Shown here: positions 3,512-23,618 of the stretch, piece by piece
Numbering within the stretch: position 1 is the first letter of the stretch
Layout of the letters: each line of letters opens with the position of its first letter
Source: a virus
Reading direction: 5' to 3' (one strand)
Length of the DNA: 25,188 bases
IMG/VR virus record: IMGVR_UViG_3300003629_000016
Span: 1-25,188 of that record
Position numbers and translations under genes: made by a program
The notes under the pieces: generated by a model
Database searches by the model: none
What the model saw: the letters and a program-made list of their open reading frames with translations, nothing else
What the model was told of the DNA's origin: nothing

Positions 3512-4582
3512 TCACACCTCCACCGTGATTCTGTCAACGCCGTATCTCCCCGGAACAAGTCCCTCACATTCACAGGTAATCGTGTATCCGTCAGATGAAC
3601 TGATGTCGTGATTAACACGTCCGACGAAGTATCGCTCTCCTCCGAATGCTTCAGGAACTTCAATTACATCGAGGGCGTCAATTTCTGCGTCGTTGTTGCG
3701 TTGCGTTGCAACAAACTCTACCTTTCCACTTTTCACTTGCTTCAGAAGCTCCTCTGCCAGCTTGTTTGCGGCAAATTCTGCTTCTGTCTTCGTCCTAATT
3801 TGCTTGTCTTTCAACGTGAAGCTCGGCTCCTGCGCCTCATCAACAAAGAACCATTCTCCCCTTTCTTCGTCAAATACGATACCAACTTCAGCGATTAGCG
3901 GGAACTCTGACTTGAGTTTGGAAGCTTCCCATCCAAATTCTGAAACGGAACTGTCGCCAACGACGACAACTCCGCGATACGGTGGCAACTTGTCAGCGGC
4001 GTCAGAGTTGATGATGTATTGCACTTCGTGAAGTTGGCTGTCTGGTAGACCAAACTGAAGGACATTATCGTTGTCAAACCACCAGTCTGAATTAGACTTT
4101 TTTGCAAGTTTGTCCAATACTTTTGCGGCTTGTGTCTCCGTCTCTTCAATTTGGATGTTGAAGTCTACAGCGTTTCCGTCGTCGTCCTGTGTCTCCCATG
4201 TAAGGTTCACATTGTAATCTACATCAACATCCTCGCAGACCGTTCTAACGACCTCAGAGAGTGGTGTCTGCTCGTCCGTAATAGAGAGTGTCACTGTTCT
4301 ATTCTTCGTGTAGAACAGGTCGTTGAGTAGCATCAGTTCGAAGGAACCGTCTTCTTTGTACTTGACCTGATTGACCCACCCTTCAAACAACTTTTCATCA
4401 TTGACCCATACTCTGGCTCGGTCGTTATGACTTGGCTCATCTTCAAAGTCTCTGTCAACGACGACAGGAGATACTTTGTCAACTTCCGTATATCGGTTAA
4501 TATCAGAAGTCATTTCAATCAATTCGTATTCCACGCCGTCAATATTCACACGGGCTTCAACTTTGTCAGATACAATAGTCAT
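3512..4582 (-). CDS. Baseplate hub protein, gpD/gp27-like
   Basis: A 356-aa protein of the late-control D / Mu gp44 / T4 gp27 type, which forms the trimeric hub at the tail tip and carries the spike. The sequence shows a beta-rich N-terminal barrel (VDRDFEDEPSHNDRARVWVND, FEGWVNQVKYKEDGSFEL). A middle segment TPLSEVVRTVCEDVDVDYNVN follows, then QAAKVLDKLAKKSNSDWWFD, typical of hub proteins. The C-terminal barrel has AFGGERYFVGRVNHDISSSD and GYTITCECEGL. Its ATG at 4582 overlaps the previous stop (ATGA) and has GAGGTGAC upstream. The next gene encodes the spike, as in P2 and Mu. Confidence 0.85.
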   Translation of the reverse strand: MTIVSDKVEARVNIDGVEYELIEMTSDINRYTEVDKVSPVVVDRDFEDEPSHNDRARVWVNDEKLFEGWVNQVKYKEDGSFELMLLNDLFYTKNRTVTLSITDEQTPLSEVVRTVCEDVDVDYNVNLTWETQDDDGNAVDFNIQIEETETQAAKVLDKLAKKSNSDWWFDNDNVLQFGLPDSQLHEVQYIINSDAADKLPPYRGVVVVGDSSVSEFGWEASKLKSEFPLIAEVGIVFDEERGEWFFVDEAQEPSFTLKDKQIRTKTEAEFAANKLAEELLKQVKSGKVEFVATQRNNDAEIDALDVIEVPEAFGGERYFVGRVNHDISSSDGYTITCECEGLVPGRYGVDRITVEV

Positions 4583-5037
4583 ATTTCTGTCACCTCAACA
4601 AGCTCGATTGTGAAAGTGTGTATCCAACTACCATCACCGCGTTGTGTCCCACCTTCAGAGTGTGGACTCGTGTTTGTAGATGCAACTTGTGCAAAACCAA
4701 TCCAACGGTTGCTGATAAACTCTATATATGGGTAATCCTTCAATTGGTCTATCTTGTCAGCTTCCTCTTCTGTACAATGCCCATCAACGCTTATTTCGTC
4801 CGGTGATTCACCGAGCTTCTGCCTCACGGTAACATCACCAACAACGTCGTGAGTTACGTAACGAGCTGATGTATCAACAGCGATGTTCGGCTGTGAGTAA
4901 TCAAGTTCCAAGAACACGTCTTCAAGACTTACATCGAAGTTTAAATCTTCATTAGAAACGAATAGCTCTTGAAGTTCTTCGTCATCTTCTCCGGGTGTGT
5001 CAATAACAACGTGTGGTCTGTCGTCTCCAAATGCCAT
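4579..5037 (-). CDS. Tail protein at the gpU/gpX (Mu gp43) position
   Basis: A 152-aa acidic protein between the tape measure and the hub gene, the place held by gpU/gpX in P2 and gp43 in Mu. Visible features are a beta-rich middle (VTVRQKLGESPDEISVDGHC), a helix TEEEADKIDQLKDYPYIEF, an RWIGFAQVASTNTS strand pair and a terminal SWIHTFTIELVEVTEI. The pattern of a small domain that presents position-value rules ('gESPDEISvdG ... RWiGfA.V') resembles gpU/DUF6046-type proteins linking tube and hub. Assignment rests mainly on gene order and this weak pattern. The ribosome site GGAGGTGT lies in the end of the tape-measure gene; the two genes are 3 nt apart. Confidence 0.6.
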   Translation of the reverse strand: MAFGDDRPHVVIDTPGEDDEELQELFVSNEDLNFDVSLEDVFLELDYSQPNIAVDTSARYVTHDVVGDVTVRQKLGESPDEISVDGHCTEEEADKIDQLKDYPYIEFISNRWIGFAQVASTNTSPHSEGGTQRGDGSWIHTFTIELVEVTEI

Positions 5038-5040
5038 AAT

Positions 5041-8000
5041 TTATACACCTCCGTCTTGCATACGGCGTTCCTGATTAGCTTCCCTGATAGCCTCTTGAAT
5101 GAGGCCCTTGACACGAGCCTTCTCCTCAGGCTTCATGTTGAACTCGGAACCACTCAAGTCGTACTGGTGGTTCTCGATGTAATTCTGCGTAACAGTCTTC
5201 TCTTCTTCTTCCATACCGTCTTCAGCATCTCCTCCGGTAATAACGTCTGCGCCAGATTCACCGCTTTGGAAGTCCACTTTTCCAATCTTGCCGAGTGGAT
5301 TAACACCCGGAATAAGTGAATTAAGCAAACTAATTCCTTCGTTGATGATTCCAATGAAGCTGTTGATGAGGTCTTCAAAGCCTTGGACAAGACGATACCA
5401 TCCACGCTCCATAACCTTTACGAACCAGTCGATTAGATTAATCACGAAAGCGATTGCTTCTTGGACTGCCTGTAGGTTAACAACAGCGTCGATTAAGGCA
5501 CCAATAATCTTGAAGACTGCATTAAGTGCCCAAGCAATCAGGTCGAATGGTAGCCGAACGAGTGTGTAGACGATTCCAGCGAAGAAGTCTATCACACCTG
5601 CCGCCATGTCAATCACCCATCCAATTGCCTTGGCAATGCCCATAATCACAGCGCCGAAGAATTGTAATATTCCAATAAGTGGACTAAATGTTGCAAGTAC
5701 AGCTTTGATACCGTCAGCAACAGCGTACACTGGCGCAAGTATTAAGTCGAGCAATTCAAGGAGTAGGTTGAACGCTGGTCCAAGAATTGCCATAATGACA
5801 TTACCAGCCCACGCAATTGTTCCAGTGATTGCTTGCATGATAACATCGAGGCTCGTGAATAGCGCAAGCAATGCACCAAGGGCAATCACAATCGTCGCAA
5901 TTGCGGCTGTTACTGGGTTCGTGTACGAAGCAAGTAGTGCAATCGTACCCGACATTCCAGCCAGTGTCGTCCCAAGGCTTGATAGAGCAGTAGTCACACT
6001 GCTGAGTGTTGGCAGAAGACCAGCCAGTGTTCCGAGGATTCCAGTGCTTCCTCCAGCGGCACTTGCGGCGGCAGAGCCACCAGCCCTTGACGCAACTGCG
6101 CCAGCGGCACGTCCGGTTACTCCACCACTTCCAGCTACTCTTCCTGCCGCGCTTCGTCCAACAGTAGATAGCGTTGGACCACCAGCAGTTCCACTCAGGA
6201 AGCTTGCCGTAGTCAATGTGCTACCAGCACTGGCAACCTTTCCAAGAGTGCCACCCTGTCGTCCGTTATCCATTGCCTCGTTTACAACGGCTTGACGTTG
6301 TTCAGGCGACAGTTGGGAGGCCTCTTCAGAGGTTAAGACCTGTGAAGCAACTCTGTTCTCTTGGAAGTTCTGGAACGCATCGTTAAGCTCTTCCATGTTA
6401 GTACCAGCACCGGCAATTTCTTTTGCGAGTTGCGCGAAGTTACTTCCAAGTTCAGCAGTGCTGTCAACCATGCTCAGGAGCTTATCGGCAAGCTCTGAAC
6501 CCCAGTCAACTGCTTCCTTCAGAATGAACACGAACGCCGCGACCTTAATAATGTTAGACGCGATACCTTCTGGCAGAGCGTTGACAACCTGAATAATATC
6601 CGTCAAGACGCTCAGGAATGCACCAATAGCAGGCAGGATGCCTTTCAGAATCGTCACACCGAACTCCGAGAAAGCGGAGAGGAAGTTGACGATGTTGTTA
6701 CTCACATCTGCGATAACTGGCATGATGCGGTTCCCTTGTTTCCTGAAGAAGTTAAGCGCCTTCGGTAGCTTTTCGAAGAACCACACGAAGAAGTCTTCTA
6801 CGAACGGAAGCAAGTCTCGAATCAGTAGTTCGATATTTGCGAGTAGCGCCGGGAAGTTGTCGAAGAAAGCACCACCGATGGCGGCTTGGAAGCCACTAAA
6901 TACGTCCTGCATACTGGCAATCGCTTGAGCGAAGCCGCTGACGGCACGCACAATACCGTCCAAGAAGCGGCGTAGCATATTGAGCGATTGCTCGTTAACG
7001 AGTGGCTCCATTGCACCCTTCAGGTCTTCCTTGAATTGCTTCATCATATCCTGAAGGCTCATTCCCTGCTCCTGTAGTGCCATAACCCCGCCAGCGAAAA
7101 TTGCGCCCATAGCTCCAGCGGCGATGAGGGCGGCGGTAGCTACACCAAGGAGCGAAGCACTCAGGCCACCAAGCAGTGTGATAATTGCAGGTAGCTGAAC
7201 GGCAATGCTACTCAATGCGAAGTTGAACGGACCAAGGTTAAGCGAAGCGGCAAGACCGTCTCGGCCAGCACCACGCATCTCGTCACCAACTTCGTCAATA
7301 CGACCTTGAGCGACCTGCGCACTTGCGGAAATCTTCTTCAGTTCTTGGTCAAACTCGTCAGTTGCCTCTGCCGCAGTCATTGCGGCGGCGGCAGTCTCGA
7401 AACTCTCCATCTGCTGGTCGTCAAGCACGTTGTTAGCGGCTTTCGCCATTCGCGCAAGTTCTGTCTCTTCTCCAGCAAGATTATCGAGCGTTTGACCGGC
7501 GCTCTTTGCACCAGCCTTTGCATCCAAGAACGTTTCGCTCTCTTCTGCAATTTGACCGGCGGTTCGACTTGCACTACGGGCAAGCTGGACGTTAGCGTTC
7601 CGTGTGGCGTCTTTTGCTTCTTCGAGGCCCTTTGCGTCTCGGATAGCATTCGCCATCTCTGTGCCCTCCTCAGAGACGCCTCGCGCCGTTGTACGAGATA
7701 CCTGACCGAGTTCCGTGTTGACGGCCTTCATCTCCTTCAACTGGTCGAGGCGCTCCATTGCGTCACCTACGTCACGCATCTGGAAGGGACTTTGCTTTCT
7801 CTCGGTGACATTATCAGCGGCGTCGGATGCCTCTTGAATCTGTTGCTTAATGTCACCGAACATTGCGTCAGCGCCAGCTTGGTCCAAGTCCTGCATTTCG
7901 CTTTTCAGCTTTTCGGCGCTGTTACTGGCTTCCTGTAGATTATCAGATACACTTTCTGTCGGCTTTGCGTCGAAGTCGTCCATTGCTTCGAAAACTTCTC

Positions 8001-8997
8001 CGTCAAAGCCTTCAGCGAATGAGAAACGGCGACCATCACCTGTATCTTCTACATCTTCAATTGGGTCACGTTCGGTAAGCGGTCCAGAAATTCCTTCAAA
8101 GTCACGGCCCGCAAACTCTTCCATGTCGTCTTCGAGGCCACTGACCTTTTCACGAACTCCGTCTCCTACATCACCGACACCAGCAAGCCGTCTCTGGAAG
8201 TCGAAAGCGTTGGTTTCGCTGTCGTCAAAAGTATTATCAAGCTCTTGAACACTTTCTTGTGCTTCTTGAATTGGGTCAACGAGGTCGTCACCAGTAGTTC
8301 TACCGACATACTCTACCGATTCACCAACACCGTCTCCAGCTTCCATCAATCCTTCAGCACCTCTCTCGAAGTCGTGCATCTGAGACTTTGCACGAGAGAG
8401 GTCGTTGTTCATACCGTCGAGTGACTTACTCGCGTCACTCATTGACTCAGCGGCTTCGTCCGAGACACCTGCTGTGTTGGACAATTCATCACGCGCCCCG
8501 CCAAGCTCTTCTGTGGTTTGAGAGACAGAATACTTCGTGCTATCGACAGATTCTTTTAGATTGTCGAACCCGCCTTCGCTCTCGCCTGCTGTCTCTGTGA
8601 AGCGTTGCGCAGACTCGTCAAGAGACTGCATCGAGTCAGCAACGTCATTAATCTCGAAGTCGTCAATATTGCTATTAACGTCGTTTGTCGCGTGACTAAC
8701 ATCATCGAGACTTTCCTTAGCGTCGTCCATCGAGTTCTTGACGCTATCCATCTCTTCAGATGTTTCTCCGAATAGTTGCTTGGCTTCTTCAACACCCTCA
8801 GCAAGACCATCAGTAGAATTATTTAAGTCAGTCGTGCTGTCGTCAAGGTCGTTTGCGGCGGCGTCAACTCCTTCCAGAGCCGTCGCTGTTCCTGTCGCCT
8901 TGGCGGCAGTTTCTTCCAATTCGTCCTGAATCTCTTCCAACTTATCCGTAACGTTCTCAGTTACAGAAAAGTGGGCGCTGAGGGTCTTATCAGCCAT
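5041..8997 (-). CDS. Tail tape measure protein
   Basis: The longest gene in the window (1318 aa), placed right after the tail chaperone frames. Residues 1 to about 590 are almost continuous helix with heptad-like Asp/Glu/Ser/Ala sequence. Several hydrophobic segments follow: near 610-665 (around LPAIITLLGGLSASLLGVAT and AALIAAGAMGAIFAGGVMAL) and a long series at about 1030-1200 (for example AAIATIVIALGALLALF). This organisation is typical of tape measure proteins, which fill the tube, set tail length and leave first during DNA ejection. By the usual rule of about 0.15 nm per residue the tail would be near 200 nm. The ATG at 8997 is 6 nt after the stop of the frameshift frame, with no clear ribosome site, so translation is probably coupled. 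Confidence 0.9.
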   Translation of the reverse strand: MADKTLSAHFSVTENVTDKLEEIQDELEETAAKATGTATALEGVDAAANDLDDSTTDLNNSTDGLAEGVEEAKQLFGETSEEMDSVKNSMDDAKESLDDVSHATNDVNSNIDDFEINDVADSMQSLDESAQRFTETAGESEGGFDNLKESVDSTKYSVSQTTEELGGARDELSNTAGVSDEAAESMSDASKSLDGMNNDLSRAKSQMHDFERGAEGLMEAGDGVGESVEYVGRTTGDDLVDPIQEAQESVQELDNTFDDSETNAFDFQRRLAGVGDVGDGVREKVSGLEDDMEEFAGRDFEGISGPLTERDPIEDVEDTGDGRRFSFAEGFDGEVFEAMDDFDAKPTESVSDNLQEASNSAEKLKSEMQDLDQAGADAMFGDIKQQIQEASDAADNVTERKQSPFQMRDVGDAMERLDQLKEMKAVNTELGQVSRTTARGVSEEGTEMANAIRDAKGLEEAKDATRNANVQLARSASRTAGQIAEESETFLDAKAGAKSAGQTLDNLAGEETELARMAKAANNVLDDQQMESFETAAAAMTAAEATDEFDQELKKISASAQVAQGRIDEVGDEMRGAGRDGLAASLNLGPFNFALSSIAVQLPAIITLLGGLSASLLGVATAALIAAGAMGAIFAGGVMALQEQGMSLQDMMKQFKEDLKGAMEPLVNEQSLNMLRRFLDGIVRAVSGFAQAIASMQDVFSGFQAAIGGAFFDNFPALLANIELLIRDLLPFVEDFFVWFFEKLPKALNFFRKQGNRIMPVIADVSNNIVNFLSAFSEFGVTILKGILPAIGAFLSVLTDIIQVVNALPEGIASNIIKVAAFVFILKEAVDWGSELADKLLSMVDSTAELGSNFAQLAKEIAGAGTNMEELNDAFQNFQENRVASQVLTSEEASQLSPEQRQAVVNEAMDNGRQGGTLGKVASAGSTLTTASFLSGTAGGPTLSTVGRSAAGRVAGSGGVTGRAAGAVASRAGGSAAASAAGGSTGILGTLAGLLPTLSSVTTALSSLGTTLAGMSGTIALLASYTNPVTAAIATIVIALGALLALFTSLDVIMQAITGTIAWAGNVIMAILGPAFNLLLELLDLILAPVYAVADGIKAVLATFSPLIGILQFFGAVIMGIAKAIGWVIDMAAGVIDFFAGIVYTLVRLPFDLIAWALNAVFKIIGALIDAVVNLQAVQEAIAFVINLIDWFVKVMERGWYRLVQGFEDLINSFIGIINEGISLLNSLIPGVNPLGKIGKVDFQSGESGADVITGGDAEDGMEEEEKTVTQNYIENHQYDLSGSEFNMKPEEKARVKGLIQEAIREANQERRMQDGGV

Positions 8998-9003
8998 AAT
9001 AGA

Positions 9004-9297
9004 TTAGATATTATGTCCACGAGATGGGCCAGATGGACCCGGCCCGGATTGGTTCTGCTTCGCTTCCTCTGCCTTTTGTTTCTTGATGCGTTCACGCTCC
9101 TGCTTTCCGTAGAACAGGAACTTTAACTGACCGTCAGTTAAGTCGTCAGCATACGCTCTGCGCTTACGCTTGGGGTGTGGACATTCCTCGTTCGGTGGTG
9201 CGTCACTGTTAAAGCAATCGCACGCATACTCTGTAACAGAGAAGGGATGCCCATACTTGACAGCGTAATGTAGGGCTTGTCCTAACTCTGTTCTCGA
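9004..9297 (-). CDS. Tail assembly chaperone, -1 frameshift extension (gpT-like)
   Basis: This frame is open from just before the stop of the 150-aa chaperone to a TAA 6 nt before the tape-measure ATG, and has no ATG or GTG near its beginning. It would be reached by a -1 shift at the four-T run 9300-9297 (codons GGT TTT CGA), where the Phe tRNA on TTT can re-pair one base back. The extension is SRTE followed by 93 residues beginning LGQALHYAVKYGHPFSVTEY. It continues with a Cys-rich piece (ACDC, then EECPHPKRKRR) that could bind zinc, a DDLTDGQLKFLFYGKQERERIKKQ helix and a Gly/Pro tail. Full fusion would be about 243 aa. Such G-GT shifts just before the tape measure are well known in tailed phages. 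The slippery site is not a classical heptamer, so the mechanism is inferred. Confidence 0.7.
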   Translation of the reverse strand, partial: SRTELGQALHYAVKYGHPFSVTEYACDCFNSDAPPNEECPHPKRKRRAYADDLTDGQLKFLFYGKQERERIKKQKAEEAKQNQSGPGPSGPSRGHNI

Positions 9298-9734
9298 AAA
9301 CCTTGAACATCACCACTCTCTTCGATGGAAACCGAAAGGATTTCACTACCAAGTTCGAAGAGAGTTTCGAAGTTAAGTTCTCCTACAATCTGCTCCATCT
9401 GAGATGGGGACAGTTGTGGATGCTCAAGAGACTTGTTACAGAGTTCCTCGAAGCCTTGAACAACCTGCTTGTTAATAGCGCCAGCGCCACCGGAAGCCTG
9501 CTCTTCTGCAAGCTCCTGTGCTTCTTCTGCGCTAACGTCTTCGTCTTCTGCGGCCTCGAACATCTCGTCGGGCATATCGCTAACTGCATCACCAATATCG
9601 CCCTTACTCACAGCCGTCATCTGAACGTCTTCCAGTTCAGCGCCGCTGTTGTGTTCGAGGGTAATTGTCTTACTGTAGTCACTACCGCCAAGTACGCGCT
9701 CGTAAAATTCTTCTGCTTCTTCTTTTTGTGCCAT
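9282..9734 (-). CDS. Tail assembly chaperone, zero-frame product (gpG-like)
   Basis: A 150-aa acidic, helical protein between tail tube and tape measure, the position of tail assembly chaperones. Visible parts are an N-terminal AEEFYERVLGGSDYSKTITL with beta content, a central acidic helix rich in Ala/Glu (DEMFEAAEDEDVSAEEAQEL), and a C-terminal helical region (VQGFEELCNKSLEHPQLSPS and MEQIVGELNFETLFELGSEI). The chaperone is thought to coat the tape measure during tube polymerisation and is not part of the virion. A GGGTGA ribosome site precedes the ATG. The last codons (GGT TTT CGA GAA CAG AGT TAG) include the proposed slip site. Sequence similarity to a named family is not recognised; the call rests on position, size and the overlapping frame. 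Confidence 0.75.
   Translation of the reverse strand: MAQKEEAEEFYERVLGGSDYSKTITLEHNSGAELEDVQMTAVSKGDIGDAVSDMPDEMFEAAEDEDVSAEEAQELAEEQASGGAGAINKQVVQGFEELCNKSLEHPQLSPSQMEQIVGELNFETLFELGSEILSVSIEESGDVQGFREQS
9297..9302 (-). promoter_or_regulatory. Proposed -1 frameshift site (GGT TTT)
   Basis: On the minus strand the zero-frame codons GGT TTT CGA include a run of four T (9300-9297). The last stop in the -1 frame is the TGA formed across GGT GAT a few codons upstream. The zero-frame stop TAG is at 9284-9282. The shift must therefore fall between these points, and TTT is the codon in that interval that keeps perfect pairing after a -1 slip. A downstream pseudoknot was not worked out. Confidence 0.5.
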
Positions 9735-9776: not shown

Positions 9777-9795
9777 AAGCGATTAGCTATCGCTT
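9777..9795 (-). terminator. Hairpin after the tail tube gene, possible attenuator
   Basis: Perfect 7-bp inverted arms AAGCGAT (9777-9783) and ATCGCTT (9789-9795) enclose a 5-nt loop. The hairpin begins within the tube stop codon (TAA at 9796-9794) and is followed in the reading direction by an A/T-rich run. It could lower transcription from the abundant tube gene into the chaperone gene or mark an RNA processing point. Archaeal terminators often need only U-runs, so the function is a guess. Confidence 0.35.
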
Positions 9796-10264
9796 ATCCG
9801 CTACTTGTTTGCTTGTACATTCGCTCGGCAACGAAGTCGTAGCTCGTACTCGTCATATCGTCAGCCGGAATGTCACGAGAGCGAGTCTCGATACCGACGT
9901 TCTTGAAGATGAGGGTTCGAGTTGTCGTACCTCCACTGCCGTTATCTACTTCTTCGTTAAACTGAATCTCAACGTTTGTCGGAGAGACGGGAATCTGGTA
10001 AGTCCCGTCACTCGCACTCTGATAGAGGGCGTCACGAAGGTCTTCGCTGGAACCGTCAAACTCGAAGGAACCAGAGAAGCTGACACCAGTTAGTGAGATT
10101 TCAGCGTGGAACGAGTCGTTGAAACGAGACTCGGCCCATTCAGCGGACTCTTCGTAAGAGCCGCTGGTGATGGCGATTTCTTTCGCACCATCTTGACCGT
10201 TCACGATAAGACTGCCATCGTGCCCTGTCTCGTCTCGATTCTGACCGTATTCTCCTGTTGGCAT
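9794..10264 (-). CDS. Tail tube protein
   Basis: A 156-aa protein directly after the sheath gene, as in P2 (FII after FI), Mu (gpM after gpL) and XkdM-type phages. It is predominantly beta, with a GHDGSLIVNGQDGAKEIAI start that resembles tube proteins. A central region has FNDSFHAEISLTGVSFSGSF and SEDLRDALYQSASDGTYQIP, followed by RTLIFKNVGIETRSRDIP. The C terminus contains STSYDFVAERMYKQ, in keeping with the gp19/tube fold where the strands face the channel. Tubes of this family stack as hexameric rings inside the sheath. A strong AAGGTGATT ribosome site precedes the ATG at 10264. Confidence 0.83.
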   Translation of the reverse strand: MPTGEYGQNRDETGHDGSLIVNGQDGAKEIAITSGSYEESAEWAESRFNDSFHAEISLTGVSFSGSFEFDGSSEDLRDALYQSASDGTYQIPVSPTNVEIQFNEEVDNGSGGTTTRTLIFKNVGIETRSRDIPADDMTSTSYDFVAERMYKQTSSG

Positions 10265-10286: not shown

Positions 10287-11636
10287 CTATGTGTTGATTG
10301 TAATGGATTCGTCAATCCGCTTGGCGATTCCATACGGCGTAATTCCTACGTCGATATTCACTTGGTCAGAGTTTGTCGAGTCTTCGTACACGTCAACGAA
10401 CCAGTTTGTCTCCTCGTCGTCGTTCGGTTTCAGGAGACGGTCGTTGACAAGCTCTGCAATCTCTGAGAACAACTGCGTCTCAGCAATGTTGCGTGTACGT
10501 TCGTCGTTAATTCGACCAATTGTGGAATCACCAACCTGCTTGGCCAGCAAGATAACTCTGTCAACAATCCGACGACGCCAGAAGTCGCGCTCCCAGTCCG
10601 TCGAACTGGACGTGGAACGGTTGTCCTTGACCCGGATGGACCCCTGCTGACGAATAGGGATAACCTGTTCGTCACGGAAGTCGTCTGCCTCAGACTTGAG
10701 CAACTTCTGCTCAAGGTCGAGGAAGCCGGATAGTACGTCGTTGTAAATCGGATTGTCGATAGCGTGACCAGCCATGAGGCCAGCCACACCAGCTACAATC
10801 GTCTTCTCGCTGTCCTGAGTACGAGCCGGAGCTACGAGGAAGTACGAATCGTCGTCGATTGCGTCACTGTAAGTAGCTGGGTCGTACTGTGCGTCAGGCG
10901 GGGACTCGCTGGAGTTGATGTTCGGCTGTGCGCCGGAGACGCCCATAACCATCTGGTACTGACCACGAAGAGTCGTGACCTTTCCAGACAGGTTACTGGC
11001 TACGCTCTCTGCATCAGAGAGTGCGGCGTAAATGCCAGTCTCTCCCTCTTCGAGAACGGTGTCTGCGGCATCAAATCCGTTGCCCCATTCCTGATATTCA
11101 TAATCGAACTCGTAATCACTGCTGGAGTCAGCCGCCCACTCACCGCTGAGTGGGTTAATTACCACGCTATCAGTCTCACTGCCTTCAAGTGAAGGCTGTG
11201 TTGGTGGAGACTCATACGTGAACTCCAGAGCGAAGTCTGCGTCAGAGGAGCTTGTACCATCAGTGGTGTCGCTAACAGTGATTGTAGAAACGTCTTCTAC
11301 AATCGGTGCATTAGCGAGCGTGCCACTGCTTGTACCACCGAAGGCTTCTGCTGTAACTGCTGAAGTTTCCAACATCACTCCGTATAGGAAGTTGATGTTG
11401 GCACCATTCGCCAGCGCGTCTTTCATCGCTGTAGCGAGTTCGGAATCTTCACCGAACTTTGTATCAGCCTCGCCACGAGCGCCAATCTGAGTTGGCTCGT
11501 TGACGCTGGCTGTAGCGTTAGCAGTGTCGCCTTCACCGAAAATTACAAGCTTCTCCTCAGCACCGACTTGGACGCCAGCAATGCCGCCGCCACGAGTCGT
11601 AACCTTTACACCGGGGAAGCTTCCATATGTTGCCAT
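10287..11636 (-). CDS. Contractile tail sheath protein
   Basis: A 449-aa protein whose N terminus (ATYGSFPGVKVTTRGGGIAG, then EEKLVIFGEGDT) and C terminus (WFVDVYEDSTNSDQVNIDVG, then ITPYGIAKRIDESITI) fit the conserved ends of phage sheath proteins, which form the interlocked beta strands of the contracting lattice. The middle (about 140-250) is the variable domain. A helical RDFWRRRIVDRVILLAKQVG and a RTRNIAETQLFSEIAELVND segment near the C-terminal third match the conserved core. It establishes that the virion has a contractile tail. AAGGTGAT precedes the ATG at 11636. Tail terminator lies upstream and tail tube downstream. Confidence 0.9.
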   Translation of the reverse strand: MATYGSFPGVKVTTRGGGIAGVQVGAEEKLVIFGEGDTANATASVNEPTQIGARGEADTKFGEDSELATAMKDALANGANINFLYGVMLETSAVTAEAFGGTSSGTLANAPIVEDVSTITVSDTTDGTSSSDADFALEFTYESPPTQPSLEGSETDSVVINPLSGEWAADSSSDYEFDYEYQEWGNGFDAADTVLEEGETGIYAALSDAESVASNLSGKVTTLRGQYQMVMGVSGAQPNINSSESPPDAQYDPATYSDAIDDDSYFLVAPARTQDSEKTIVAGVAGLMAGHAIDNPIYNDVLSGFLDLEQKLLKSEADDFRDEQVIPIRQQGSIRVKDNRSTSSSTDWERDFWRRRIVDRVILLAKQVGDSTIGRINDERTRNIAETQLFSEIAELVNDRLLKPNDDEETNWFVDVYEDSTNSDQVNIDVGITPYGIAKRIDESITINT

Positions 11637-17528: not shown

Positions 17529-18152
17529 TCAGAAACGATTTCTCCAAGCTTCGGTTTGAAGTACCTCGTCCTTCATTGAAGCACAGAAGGCGCTTGGTCT
17601 GCTTATTTCCCCAGCCATGTCTGCACGGCACGTTGTAAACGTACCACCGAGTGACGACCACGCATCAAGAAGGATTAACCGTGCTGGCTTCTTGGCATCC
17701 TTCCAAGAGTCAGGGTAATCATCCCAACCAACACCGGGGTCATCAACACCCGGAATATTGATAAGTTCCTCCATCGAGTATGGGTCGTCCATCTTACTGT
17801 AGACAGAGGCTTCTTCACCATTTTGTGCAAGGTCCTTTGCGGCATCTTTCCCACCGGGACCATCAGGGAAGCTACCCTCACCTCCAATGTCGTCTTCAGA
17901 GACAGCACGAAGGCCGTCTTCAGTTCCGACAACATAAATAGGCTCTTCCTCAGAAGCCTCAAGCTCCTGAACACCATCGGATGTTGGGAAGTCGAAATTC
18001 TCTGTCATAAGTGAGGTAATCACAGCGGTTCCGCCGGGGTCGATTTCCACAATGTCTCCCTCACTCCATTCGGCCAATTCTGCAATACCGTACCCGTAGC
18101 TGAGTTCTTCAAAGAACCCGTCAGGGAATCCGGTAATCGTAACGTTTGTCAT
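17529..18152 (-). CDS. Conserved-looking 207-aa head-module protein, function unknown
   Basis: The ATG overlaps the portal-MuF stop (ATGA). Residues 1-95 are beta-rich: WSEGDIVEIDPGGTAVITSL, then EEEPIYVVGTEDGLRAVSED, which could be a small beta-barrel. Residues about 96-207 form a different, helical module with many Trp, Cys and aromatic residues: GKDAAKDLAQNGEEASVYSK, GWDDYPDSWKDAKKPARLIL, LDAWSSLGGTFTTCRADMAG and EISRPSAFCASMKDEVL. Two Cys (175, 190) and the WSSLGGTF and PSAFCASMKD segments are plausible signature residues. I do not recognise a named family. Genes in this place in other tailed viruses encode minor head or portal-associated proteins. Confidence 0.7.
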   Translation of the reverse strand: MTNVTITGFPDGFFEELSYGYGIAELAEWSEGDIVEIDPGGTAVITSLMTENFDFPTSDGVQELEASEEEPIYVVGTEDGLRAVSEDDIGGEGSFPDGPGGKDAAKDLAQNGEEASVYSKMDDPYSMEELINIPGVDDPGVGWDDYPDSWKDAKKPARLILLDAWSSLGGTFTTCRADMAGEISRPSAFCASMKDEVLQTEAWRNRF

Positions 18153-20494
18153 GTTTCTTCAACCTCGATTCCATATTTGTCTTCAAGTTGCTCAACTGTG
18201 TAGGATTCCCCACGCTTTGGTTCATAATCCTCAAGCTCTTCTTCAGTGATAGGAACAAGCTCTGTTCTGCAATTGAAGTGCCACGGTGGGGCGGCAGGCA
18301 TCGGCGCAAAGCCTTTGAACATCAATGCGTCAGGAACTTGGTCCTGCCACTGCTCAGACAAGTCTTCATCAAGGCGTGCGATGGCCTCTTGATGGACGCC
18401 ACAGCCTGCGAGATTTTCACAGAGTCGTGTCGTCTCAGGGCCACAGATGTTGATTGGTCGCACAGCCACTACGTCGTCATTCATCGAGAACTCGTTGAGC
18501 TTTGTGTTCTCAATGCTGTTCTGAATCTGCATCCGTGAAATTAAGTCACTGCGTTCACTAAGCTCGGCGTCATTGAAGTCGTTGCGGATGCGTTGGATAA
18601 TCGTATCGAAACTTTCTCCATTACCGACACCACGCTCAAGATGGCCACGCATACGTCGTCCAAACTCGTGTAGTGCATCACGAGTGGACTGCGTGACGTT
18701 CTGACCGTAGTTCTCGGCCTGCTGACGATGACGGAAGCCGAACGTCACGTCCATATCGACTTCCTGATTACGCTGTCCGAGCGTCTCTACAGTCTTTGCG
18801 ACGACAGCTTCCATAACAGCGTTGGACTTCTGTTGCGTCTCTTGCTGTCGTAGTGTCGTCTCAACTTCGGAGTTAGCCAAGTCGCTAAATCCAGCAAGTG
18901 CAGACTGTGGACTTCCCTGATAGCGACGTTCGACTTCTGACAAGACGTTCTCTCGGAACTCCATGAACGTATCCTGAAGTACATTAGAGAGGTCAGATTC
19001 CTCGTCACTCGTTGAGACGAATCGCGGGTCAGCAAGCTCTTCAGTGTCGTGGTCGTGTGATAACTCAGCTTCCCAAAGCTGTCGTGCCTGTTCAGAAGCT
19101 ACGTTATCTCCTTCTCCATCATCACCAGTCTGCTGGTTTCCTTGCGGATTCTGGTCATTTTGGCGACCCTGTGGGTTCTGGTCGTTCTGCCCGCCAGTCT
19201 TCGTGTCTCCGCCAACGTATCTAATCACATTGACGTTCTGTTGCTGAGGCATCTCATCTTCCTCAGGTGCGCCCACACGGAAGCGTAGGTTGCGTGCTTC
19301 CTCTTCACTGAGTCCGAACATCTGCTCTGCCTTCTGCTGAACAACCGGCGAGAGCTTGCTCTCAAACTCTCTGCGGCGTTCCTCAATCTGGCGTTGAGTG
19401 TCACGCTCTTGAGACTGCGTGACGAACTGGTTAATACTCGCCTCGTATGCACCAAGTGTGTACTTGGCCTTCGGCATGGCACTTAGAATCCAGTTCAAGT
19501 CGAACTCAAGATATTCAGCGATGTCAGCCACCTCGCCAGAGATGGTTTCAACGTCTACGTCGCCTCGAACACCTTGTTTCATGCCGGGGTGGAAATTGTC
19601 CATCTCGTGGGCCTGCATGAACGAGTCAATGTCGTTCCGGTCCCACGGAGCTTCTTCACTTCCGAACATGAAGAGCCAGAGCGGGTACGCCTTGCTGGAA
19701 ATGGCCTCGTCGTTGTCTCGGAGCTTCTTCTTCAGCCCTTCAATACGCTGGCTGACGCTCTCAAGACGGGACGTACCGAGTGCTTCACCAGTGTCTTCGT
19801 CTCTGGTAATCTTCAGCACTTCGTCCTTCGTGAAGTTAATCTCTTCAGAACCGCTTCCAGCGCCGCCTCCGCCGTATGCGGAGCGACTTGGACGAGTCTG
19901 CGTGTACGCCGCCGCAACGCCGTCTTCGGTCGTTGGAACGTCGTCAAACTCCTTCTCGTCGCCGGGCTGTAGAACCATATTCTGGTTCGGGCGCTTGTTA
20001 ATCTCCATCGTTTCAGCAGGAATGAACTTGAAGCCAAGAAGCTTCTCGCTATCTTCCTTTGCGTAGACCTTCTCGATAAAGACAGTACCCTTAACCTCAA
20101 TCTGGACAACAGCCTTCTTGATAAGCTCCGACATATTTTCATCAGTAAGACCACTGATGATAGCGGAACTGCGGAGCCAGTTAACAAGCTTCTTCAACTG
20201 CTCTTCGTCCAAGTCGGGAGACTCGACACGATAGCCCGGTTGAATTACTTCACGAGCGTAGCTCGTAATCGGCTCTCTAATAATCGGCGTCGTCTCGAAC
20301 TGCCGCCAGTACCGTCTGTACTGGTCTTTCGGCGGCTCGATGCTGTCAGGAGACGAATCAGATGAGAACGGACTCGAAGCGAACTTGTCTTCGCTACGTG
20401 GGTTCTTGTTAGTGGCACCCTCGTCCTGTAGAGATGCGACTTCTCGTGCCTTGTTCGCAATAAAGCTACTTAGTCGAGATTCTTTCTCACTCAT
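18149..20494 (-). CDS. Portal protein fused to MuF-like head morphogenesis domain
   Basis: A 781-aa protein. Residues about 55-415 match phage portals: YWRQFETTPIIREPITSYAR, helix VNWLRSSAIISGLTDENMSE, IEVKGTVFIEKVYAKEDSEK, the DEVLKITRDEDTGEALGTSR region, LESVSQRIEGLKKKLRDNDE and the long channel helix ending near 400. Residues 430-460 are a Gln/Asn/Gly linker with two copies of a NDQNPQG unit. Residues about 480-760 are helical and end in a MuF/minor head pattern: ERSDLISRMQIQNSIENTKL, CGPETTRLCENLAGCGVH and PPWHFNCRTELVPI. Portal is the entry channel for DNA, and MuF proteins are injected or assist capsid assembly. Usually the two are separate genes. Start overlaps the previous stop (ATGA). 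Confidence 0.85.
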   Translation of the reverse strand: MSEKESRLSSFIANKAREVASLQDEGATNKNPRSEDKFASSPFSSDSSPDSIEPPKDQYRRYWRQFETTPIIREPITSYAREVIQPGYRVESPDLDEEQLKKLVNWLRSSAIISGLTDENMSELIKKAVVQIEVKGTVFIEKVYAKEDSEKLLGFKFIPAETMEINKRPNQNMVLQPGDEKEFDDVPTTEDGVAAAYTQTRPSRSAYGGGGAGSGSEEINFTKDEVLKITRDEDTGEALGTSRLESVSQRIEGLKKKLRDNDEAISSKAYPLWLFMFGSEEAPWDRNDIDSFMQAHEMDNFHPGMKQGVRGDVDVETISGEVADIAEYLEFDLNWILSAMPKAKYTLGAYEASINQFVTQSQERDTQRQIEERRREFESKLSPVVQQKAEQMFGLSEEEARNLRFRVGAPEEDEMPQQQNVNVIRYVGGDTKTGGQNDQNPQGRQNDQNPQGNQQTGDDGEGDNVASEQARQLWEAELSHDHDTEELADPRFVSTSDEESDLSNVLQDTFMEFRENVLSEVERRYQGSPQSALAGFSDLANSEVETTLRQQETQQKSNAVMEAVVAKTVETLGQRNQEVDMDVTFGFRHRQQAENYGQNVTQSTRDALHEFGRRMRGHLERGVGNGESFDTIIQRIRNDFNDAELSERSDLISRMQIQNSIENTKLNEFSMNDDVVAVRPINICGPETTRLCENLAGCGVHQEAIARLDEDLSEQWQDQVPDALMFKGFAPMPAAPPWHFNCRTELVPITEEELEDYEPKRGESYTVEQLEDKYGIEVEET

Positions 20495-22946: not shown

Positions 22947-22984
22947 TCATATATACAAGTAATCACGACGACCCTTTTATAAGG
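22947..22984 (-). promoter_or_regulatory. Promoter/operator array P1 before small terminase
   Basis: Read on the minus strand: box CCTTATAAAAGG (22984-22973), 7-nt gap, TGATTAC (22965-22959), 2 nt, GTATATATGA (22956-22947), then 21 nt to the ATG at 22925. Elements and spacings match the array before the protease gene. The 12-bp box is the exact reverse complement of the one there, so it may be read by a symmetric factor or be a TATA box. The stop codon of the HNH gene (22979-22977) falls inside the box. Confidence 0.74.
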
Positions 22985-23618
22985 TCATTACTTCGTTGGG
23001 GTTGTTTGGTTCTGGACAACTAATTAGGCCTTGTTCAACTTTTCCGTGATGTTTTGGACATAAAGTAATCAAATTGCTCAGTTTATTTGATTCTTCTACA
23101 GTTTTTTGCTCATTTTCTCTAAATTTTCTGCGTGGGATTATATGATGAACTTGTGGATTTTGTTCATCTCCACAAATTCTACATTTTGAGTTATCTCTTT
23201 CAAGAGTCTTTTGTCGCTGTTCTTTCCAGTTTCTTCCAAATTCTCTTAGAGAATCTCCATCAATATAGAAGTGACATCTTTCTCCACTGTACCAATCTGT
23301 AAAACACTCATTGGAACAAAATTTACCTGAGTGTGGCGGTCTGTAAGAAAATCTTTCACCACAATTTTCACAAAGTGTGTGGCTAATATTCTTTGTCGTA
23401 CCTACTTTGTAGCAACTCCTCGAACAAAAGCGTCTATTCGGGTTTTGGCAACTGTAGTAAAAGAATAGTTCACCACATCTTTCACAGTGCCTATAATCTT
23501 GGTTCTCACTTTCTCGGCGGCTTTCTAACTCTTCCTGACACTCAAAACTACAAATAAGTATCCCTTCTGACTGAACAGTTTCGAAATCTGAGCCACATAT
23601 GTCACAACCTTTTATCAT
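22977..23618 (-). CDS. HNH endonuclease with three zinc ribbons
   Basis: A 213-aa protein, visibly AT-richer than the genes around it. Three CxxC...CxxxC modules lie in residues 1-105 (C5/C8-C23/C27, C45/C48-C65/C69, C83/C86-C101/C105). A linker helix (FGRNWKEQRQKTLERDN) leads to an HNH nuclease: CRICG (146-150), VHHIIPRRKF with catalytic-type H158/H159, NLITLC with N182, and CPKHHGKVEQG with H190/H191. HNH genes beside terminases can encode packaging cofactors (as in HK97-like phages), but the extra zinc ribbons and different composition look more like a free-standing mobile endonuclease. The gene reads into the P1 promoter box. ATG at 23618 follows CGGTGTC. Confidence 0.87.
   Translation of the reverse strand: MIKGCDICGSDFETVQSEGILICSFECQEELESRRESENQDYRHCERCGELFFYYSCQNPNRRFCSRSCYKVGTTKNISHTLCENCGERFSYRPPHSGKFCSNECFTDWYSGERCHFYIDGDSLREFGRNWKEQRQKTLERDNSKCRICGDEQNPQVHHIIPRRKFRENEQKTVEESNKLSNLITLCPKHHGKVEQGLISCPEPNNPNEVMTL

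Follow-up and report, generated by a model that had tools for sequence, protein, structure and literature searches.

The stretch of DNA analysed here (the window, a 25.2-kb viral contig of 25,188 nucleotides) carries two overlapping reading frames on its minus strand which together appear to encode a tail assembly chaperone. The putative short form, gpG-like and 150 aa long, is an open reading frame in the zero frame (9282..9734) and ends in a TAG stop (9282..9284) that lies 4 codons 3' of a TTT codon, as it does in most relatives. The second frame, -1 relative to the first, is an open stretch (9004..9309, minus strand) that begins immediately past a TGA, ends in a TAA at 9006-9004 and contains no ATG, GTG or TTG; counted from the slip it would supply a C-terminal extension of about 97 aa, found only in a fusion. 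The +1 frame is closed 23 codons past the zero-frame stop. In the zero frame the junction reads GAT GTT CAA GGT TTT CGA GAA CAG AGT TAG, the GGT codon occupying 9302-9300 and the TTT codon 9299-9297, and the candidate slip site T_TTT_C occupies 9296..9300 of the same strand. A -1 slip on TTT would give a 243-aa fusion, ...DVQGF-SRTELGQALHYAVKYGHPFSVTEYACDCFN... (junction VQGF-SRTELGQ). The original prediction had placed the end of the gene at 9282 and described a startless -1 frame open to 9004, and these coordinates are correct.

The gene order in the window is sheath, tube, chaperone pair and tape measure, all on the minus strand, and the genes for the terminase, the portal and the major capsid protein are found upstream of the pair. 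The tail sheath gene (10287..11636) and the tape-measure gene directly downstream of the pair (5041..8997) match PHROG families at E 3e-120 and E 2e-14, respectively, while the tail-tube gene upstream of the pair (9794..10264) is assigned from its position after the sheath and from a weak PHROG tail-tube match (E 0.019). Among cultivated viruses HGTV-1 is the closest, with a sheath DNA identity of 73% over a matched part that makes up 10% of the 7.3-kb query.

When the sheath, the short form and the extension were used as queries, 28 distinct short forms were recovered, that of the window among them, and one further locus (L140) was added as the 29th. Most of these loci were recovered via the sheath or the zero-frame protein, the extension not being the criterion by which they were selected. 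At three sheath loci (L009, L018 and L020) the stored DNA stops shortly after the sheath and holds no chaperone match, and a search of bacterial and archaeal genomes for proviral relatives found none. The -1 extension is kept in 29/29 distinct loci, running 53 to 131 codons past the zero-frame stop, and so is the zero-frame junction NNT TTT C; the overlap, the frame and the site are all kept in the cultivated HGTV-1. No locus encodes the extension fused in frame, and none lacks it; with such conservation the overlap is not a product of chance. Pairwise dN in the extension is far below dS (for example 0.055/0.70 and 0.073/0.84 in close pairs), and by this measure the extension is under purifying selection. 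The refuting condition set in the original prediction, relatives with the extension in frame or without it, was seen in 0/29 loci. The proposal of a -1 frameshifted tail chaperone is strongly supported by the 29 loci, by synteny and by selection, and on this sequence evidence the gene pair is very probably a -1 programmed frameshift tail assembly chaperone of the gpG/gpGT type.

Within the junction, the element T_TTT_C is invariant in 29/29 loci, and its surroundings vary. TTT is preceded by GAT in most loci, by GGT in the window and in L022, L030, L035, L037, L039, L040 and L041, by GCT in L004 and by AGT in L042, and the first base of the heptamer can be A, G or C. The window heptamer, A_GGT_TTT, does not follow the classical pattern X_XXY_YYZ, which is found only in L040 (G_GGT_TTT); many relatives have G_GAT_TTT. 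The original description of the site as a non-classical heptamer is accurate for the window. Aligned by codons, every sequence has TTT in the Phe column of the junction, whereas most of the other invariant Phe columns favour TTC (three of them contain TTC and TTT at 25/3, 19/9 and 24/4), and the junction is the sole conserved degenerate column that uses one codon; TTT makes up 26% of the Phe codons in the window. Because L007 has a -1-frame TAA immediately 5' of GGA TTT TCA, and because the zero-frame stop of L017 comes several codons later with TTTTC unchanged, the slip is bracketed at TTTTC. Pairs of the window/L004 type are saturated at synonymous sites, and therefore the fixed TTTTC is not simply inherited through closeness.

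We rejected two further candidate lines of evidence at this site. In-phase T_TTT is avoided elsewhere in coding regions, but a second phase shows avoidance of TTTT as well, and this genome-wide avoidance is therefore not specific to slippage. An upstream Shine-Dalgarno stimulator was dismissed by eye, the only purine-rich stretch being about 24 nt upstream and coding. A shared downstream pseudoknot or hairpin was not found either, the 70-nt folds having a mean z of -0.97 and differing between loci. In two of the three codon phases, TTTT runs in the coding regions of HGTV-1 and related loci occur at roughly half the frequency seen in synonymous shuffles.

The scheme that we infer, including the occurrence and efficiency of slippage, the single tRNA involved and the binding roles of the products, is that of a tail assembly chaperone made in two forms by an HGTV-1-related haloarchaeal virus with a contractile tail. 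The majority of ribosomes would terminate at 9282 and release the 150-aa short form. On a minority, the Phe-tRNA would slip back one base, which it can do because the base preceding TTT is T in 29/29 loci, and would re-pair with the overlapping TTT of T_TTT_C; translation would then run in the -1 frame to 9004 and yield the 243-aa fusion. If the parts work as in lambda gpG/gpGT, the common part may coat the tape measure and the rare extension may recruit tube subunits.

Slippage of one Phe-tRNA on T_TTT_C is the simplest mechanism common to all loci, and judging from the alignments we consider it reasonably likely. The same -1 frameshift might instead involve two tRNAs slipping in the classical manner on a relaxed heptamer, N_GNT_TTT, where re-pairing would be perfect for the Phe-tRNA in the A site and poor for the tRNA in the P site; this account differs in mechanism and not in the frameshift claim. 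Two-tRNA slippage is possible in members with G_GAT_TTT or G_GGT_TTT: the former, common among the relatives, has been reported as a -1 site in pea enation mosaic virus (PMC5009743), a plant RNA virus, unlike the haloarchaeal virus of the window with its A_GGT_TTT, and the latter is the canonical heptamer carried by L040. Against it, the P-site codon may be GAT, GGT, GCT or AGT, and P-site re-pairing is not conserved, T_TTT_C being the only invariant part. We favour slippage of the Phe-tRNA alone because the codon ahead of TTT is variable and in most cases would not allow re-pairing once the frame has moved by -1, as argued from the standard anticodons of the tRNAs concerned (Asp, Gly, Ala and Ser), and regard the two-tRNA mechanism as possible but rather doubtful.

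The Hafunaviridae (HF2, HSTV-2, HRTV-7, -8, -25, -27 and HJTV-2) share the gene order of the window, but their chaperone site is TTT CGN and their extension lies in the +1 frame, whereas that of the window group lies in -1. In 25 Hafunaviridae loci the extension is always in +1 (two of these loci have TTT CCG instead of TTT CGN), and TTT follows G, C or A and never T, the base found in the window group. Comparison of the fusion profiles of the two groups by hhalign gave an alignment of 181 columns with a probability of 94.7, a pairwise E of 6e-8 and a score of 60.2, against a best score of 21.1 among 60 column-shuffled controls, and the alignment spans the junction and pairs the shift-site Phe residues of the two groups. 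Matches were weaker when the short forms were compared by themselves (E 1.5e-5 to 1.9e-4), and likewise for the extensions (6.8e-5, 17 columns). By this profile comparison the fusion protein of the window group can be taken as homologous to the Hafunaviridae-type chaperone.

From TTT to the start of the second extension codon there are 2 nt in the -1 group but 4 nt in the +1 group, and because of this offset a 2-nt change at the site together with a reversed slip would keep the product, which reads FSETG in the one group and FAETG in the other. It is somewhat more probable than otherwise that the Phe-tRNA on TTT shifts in both groups, T_TTT_C directing -1 and V_TTT_CGN directing +1, with the direction flipped at a homologous codon by a 2-nt indel. 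The shift of the HF1 group (PMC7230728) and that of HSTV-2 (PMC5009743) have been called +1, while GenBank notes for three Hafunaviridae records (L080, L081 and L082) call it -2; Phe-tRNA pairing favours +1 over -2. The comparison suggests that the direction of slipping may be reversible at one and the same codon without loss of the product. If true, such a reversal would provide a clean test of the determinants of direction and would bear on the disagreement between +1 and -2 for the Hafunaviridae.

Among cultivated viruses, HGTV-1 (Halomagnusviridae) has direct homologues of the pair in gp19 and gp20, with 41% identity in the short form and 45% in the extension. Its junction, AAG GAT TTT CAC, leads into a -1 extension as in the window, but this extension has no Cys, unlike that of the window. 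In the GenBank record of this virus the region (8398-9059) is annotated as two hypothetical proteins, gp20 starting from an internal TTG, and the -1 fusion is not annotated.

The lambda shift site is the classical heptamer G_GGA_AAG. Like the window pair, lambda gpG/gpGT is encoded before the tape measure, slips -1 near the end of the short form and has a fusion as its long form (PMC5009743); the window extension differs in having no sequence match to gpT. HCTV-1, -2 and -5, HVTV-1 and Hardycor1 are likewise haloarchaeal tailed viruses with a -1 frameshift in a chaperone encoded before the tape measure. A frameshifted tail chaperone is a known kind of gene, archaeal viruses included, and it is the site that lies outside the classical heptamers. 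The original suggestion that archaeal ribosomes may use a simpler site was too broad, since classical heptamers have been reported for other haloviruses (PMC5009743, PMC7911831). A 2021 review counted one demonstrated -1 frameshift in archaea (PMC8211752), and the compact T_TTT_C, which 29 viral loci conserve, is a site testable in Haloferax.

The extension might also be a separate gene, expressed from an internal start or by re-initiation, as the two-protein GenBank annotation of gp19 and gp20 implies and as a TTG at extension codon 9 in three loci would allow. The -1 frame of the window has no start codon whatever, however, and in most relatives none precedes the conserved part (in 18/28 loci the first 45 extension codons include neither ATG nor GTG nor TTG); moreover, the conserved FSRT..GQ segment sits at the junction, 5' of that TTG. 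We regard a separate gene as very unlikely. Equally improbable is a +2 skip, in which TTT is read and the next two bases are passed over: it would reach the same frame as a -1 slip and give a product without the first Ser, but it lacks a pairing rationale and would not need a T before TTT, yet that T is invariant in the window group and absent from the homologous +1 viruses. Finally, although two adjacent frames can always originate from a pseudogene or from a sequencing or assembly indel that splits one longer gene, this reading is refuted by the comparison of the 29 loci, which come from many assemblies and one cultivated virus, are distinct, break at the identical codon and have dN far below dS on both sides of the break, and we give it practically no weight.

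AlphaFold2 models, each built on an alignment of 27-28 relatives, had a mean pLDDT of 72 for the short form and 79 for the extension. In the PDB the short form comes closest to 2ob9, the tail assembly chaperone of HK97 (Foldseek E 0.19; Z 5.4 over 93 residues, rmsd 3.7 A), a modest match with a Z below 8, and the next is YqbN (3klu, Z 4.3). Several matches among the viral models of BFVD are named tail assembly chaperone. Searches with the short form against Pfam, PHROG and PDB sequences gave chance-level matches only. The model offers supportive but modest evidence for a chaperone-like fold.

The extension is predicted to form a helix, a strand, a loop, a second strand and a long helix. Family and fold searches with it gave no match, gpT included, and structural alignments (VIA-align) reached Z 3.5 or less, mostly with single helices and winged helices. 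For the relation to gpT proposed in the original prediction, the basis is position, profile and fold searches having given no match.

The original prediction also pointed to Cys groups in the extension that may bind zinc. A Cys loop with the pattern C-x-C-x10-C-x-H lies at approximately 9171..9223 (minus strand) between the two beta strands predicted by the model, and the same spacing occurs only in L004 and L042, making 3/29 loci. In five others (L017, L045, L047, L048 and L049) there are two CxxCxGxG knuckles with a weak match to DnaJ PF00684, and the remaining loci have neither Cys type in the extension. Zinc groups are accordingly no general feature of the family: they are placed in the loop between the strands, outside the extension core, and metal binding by the extension would be at most a lineage-specific addition. 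In these five loci (L017 at 4361-4789) the DnaJ-like knuckle pair is likewise inserted between the two strands of the extension.

Two other genes of the window have features of their own. The portal gene (18149-20494) encodes 781 aa, of which residues 8-413 match portal and a part near the C-terminus (550-774) matches a minor-head/head-morphogenesis family, which suggests a fused portal-MuF-type protein. At 22977-23618, a 213-aa protein known from its translation only has several CxxC pairs, and its C-terminal part (CRICGDEQNPQVHHIIPRRKF) is HNH-like.
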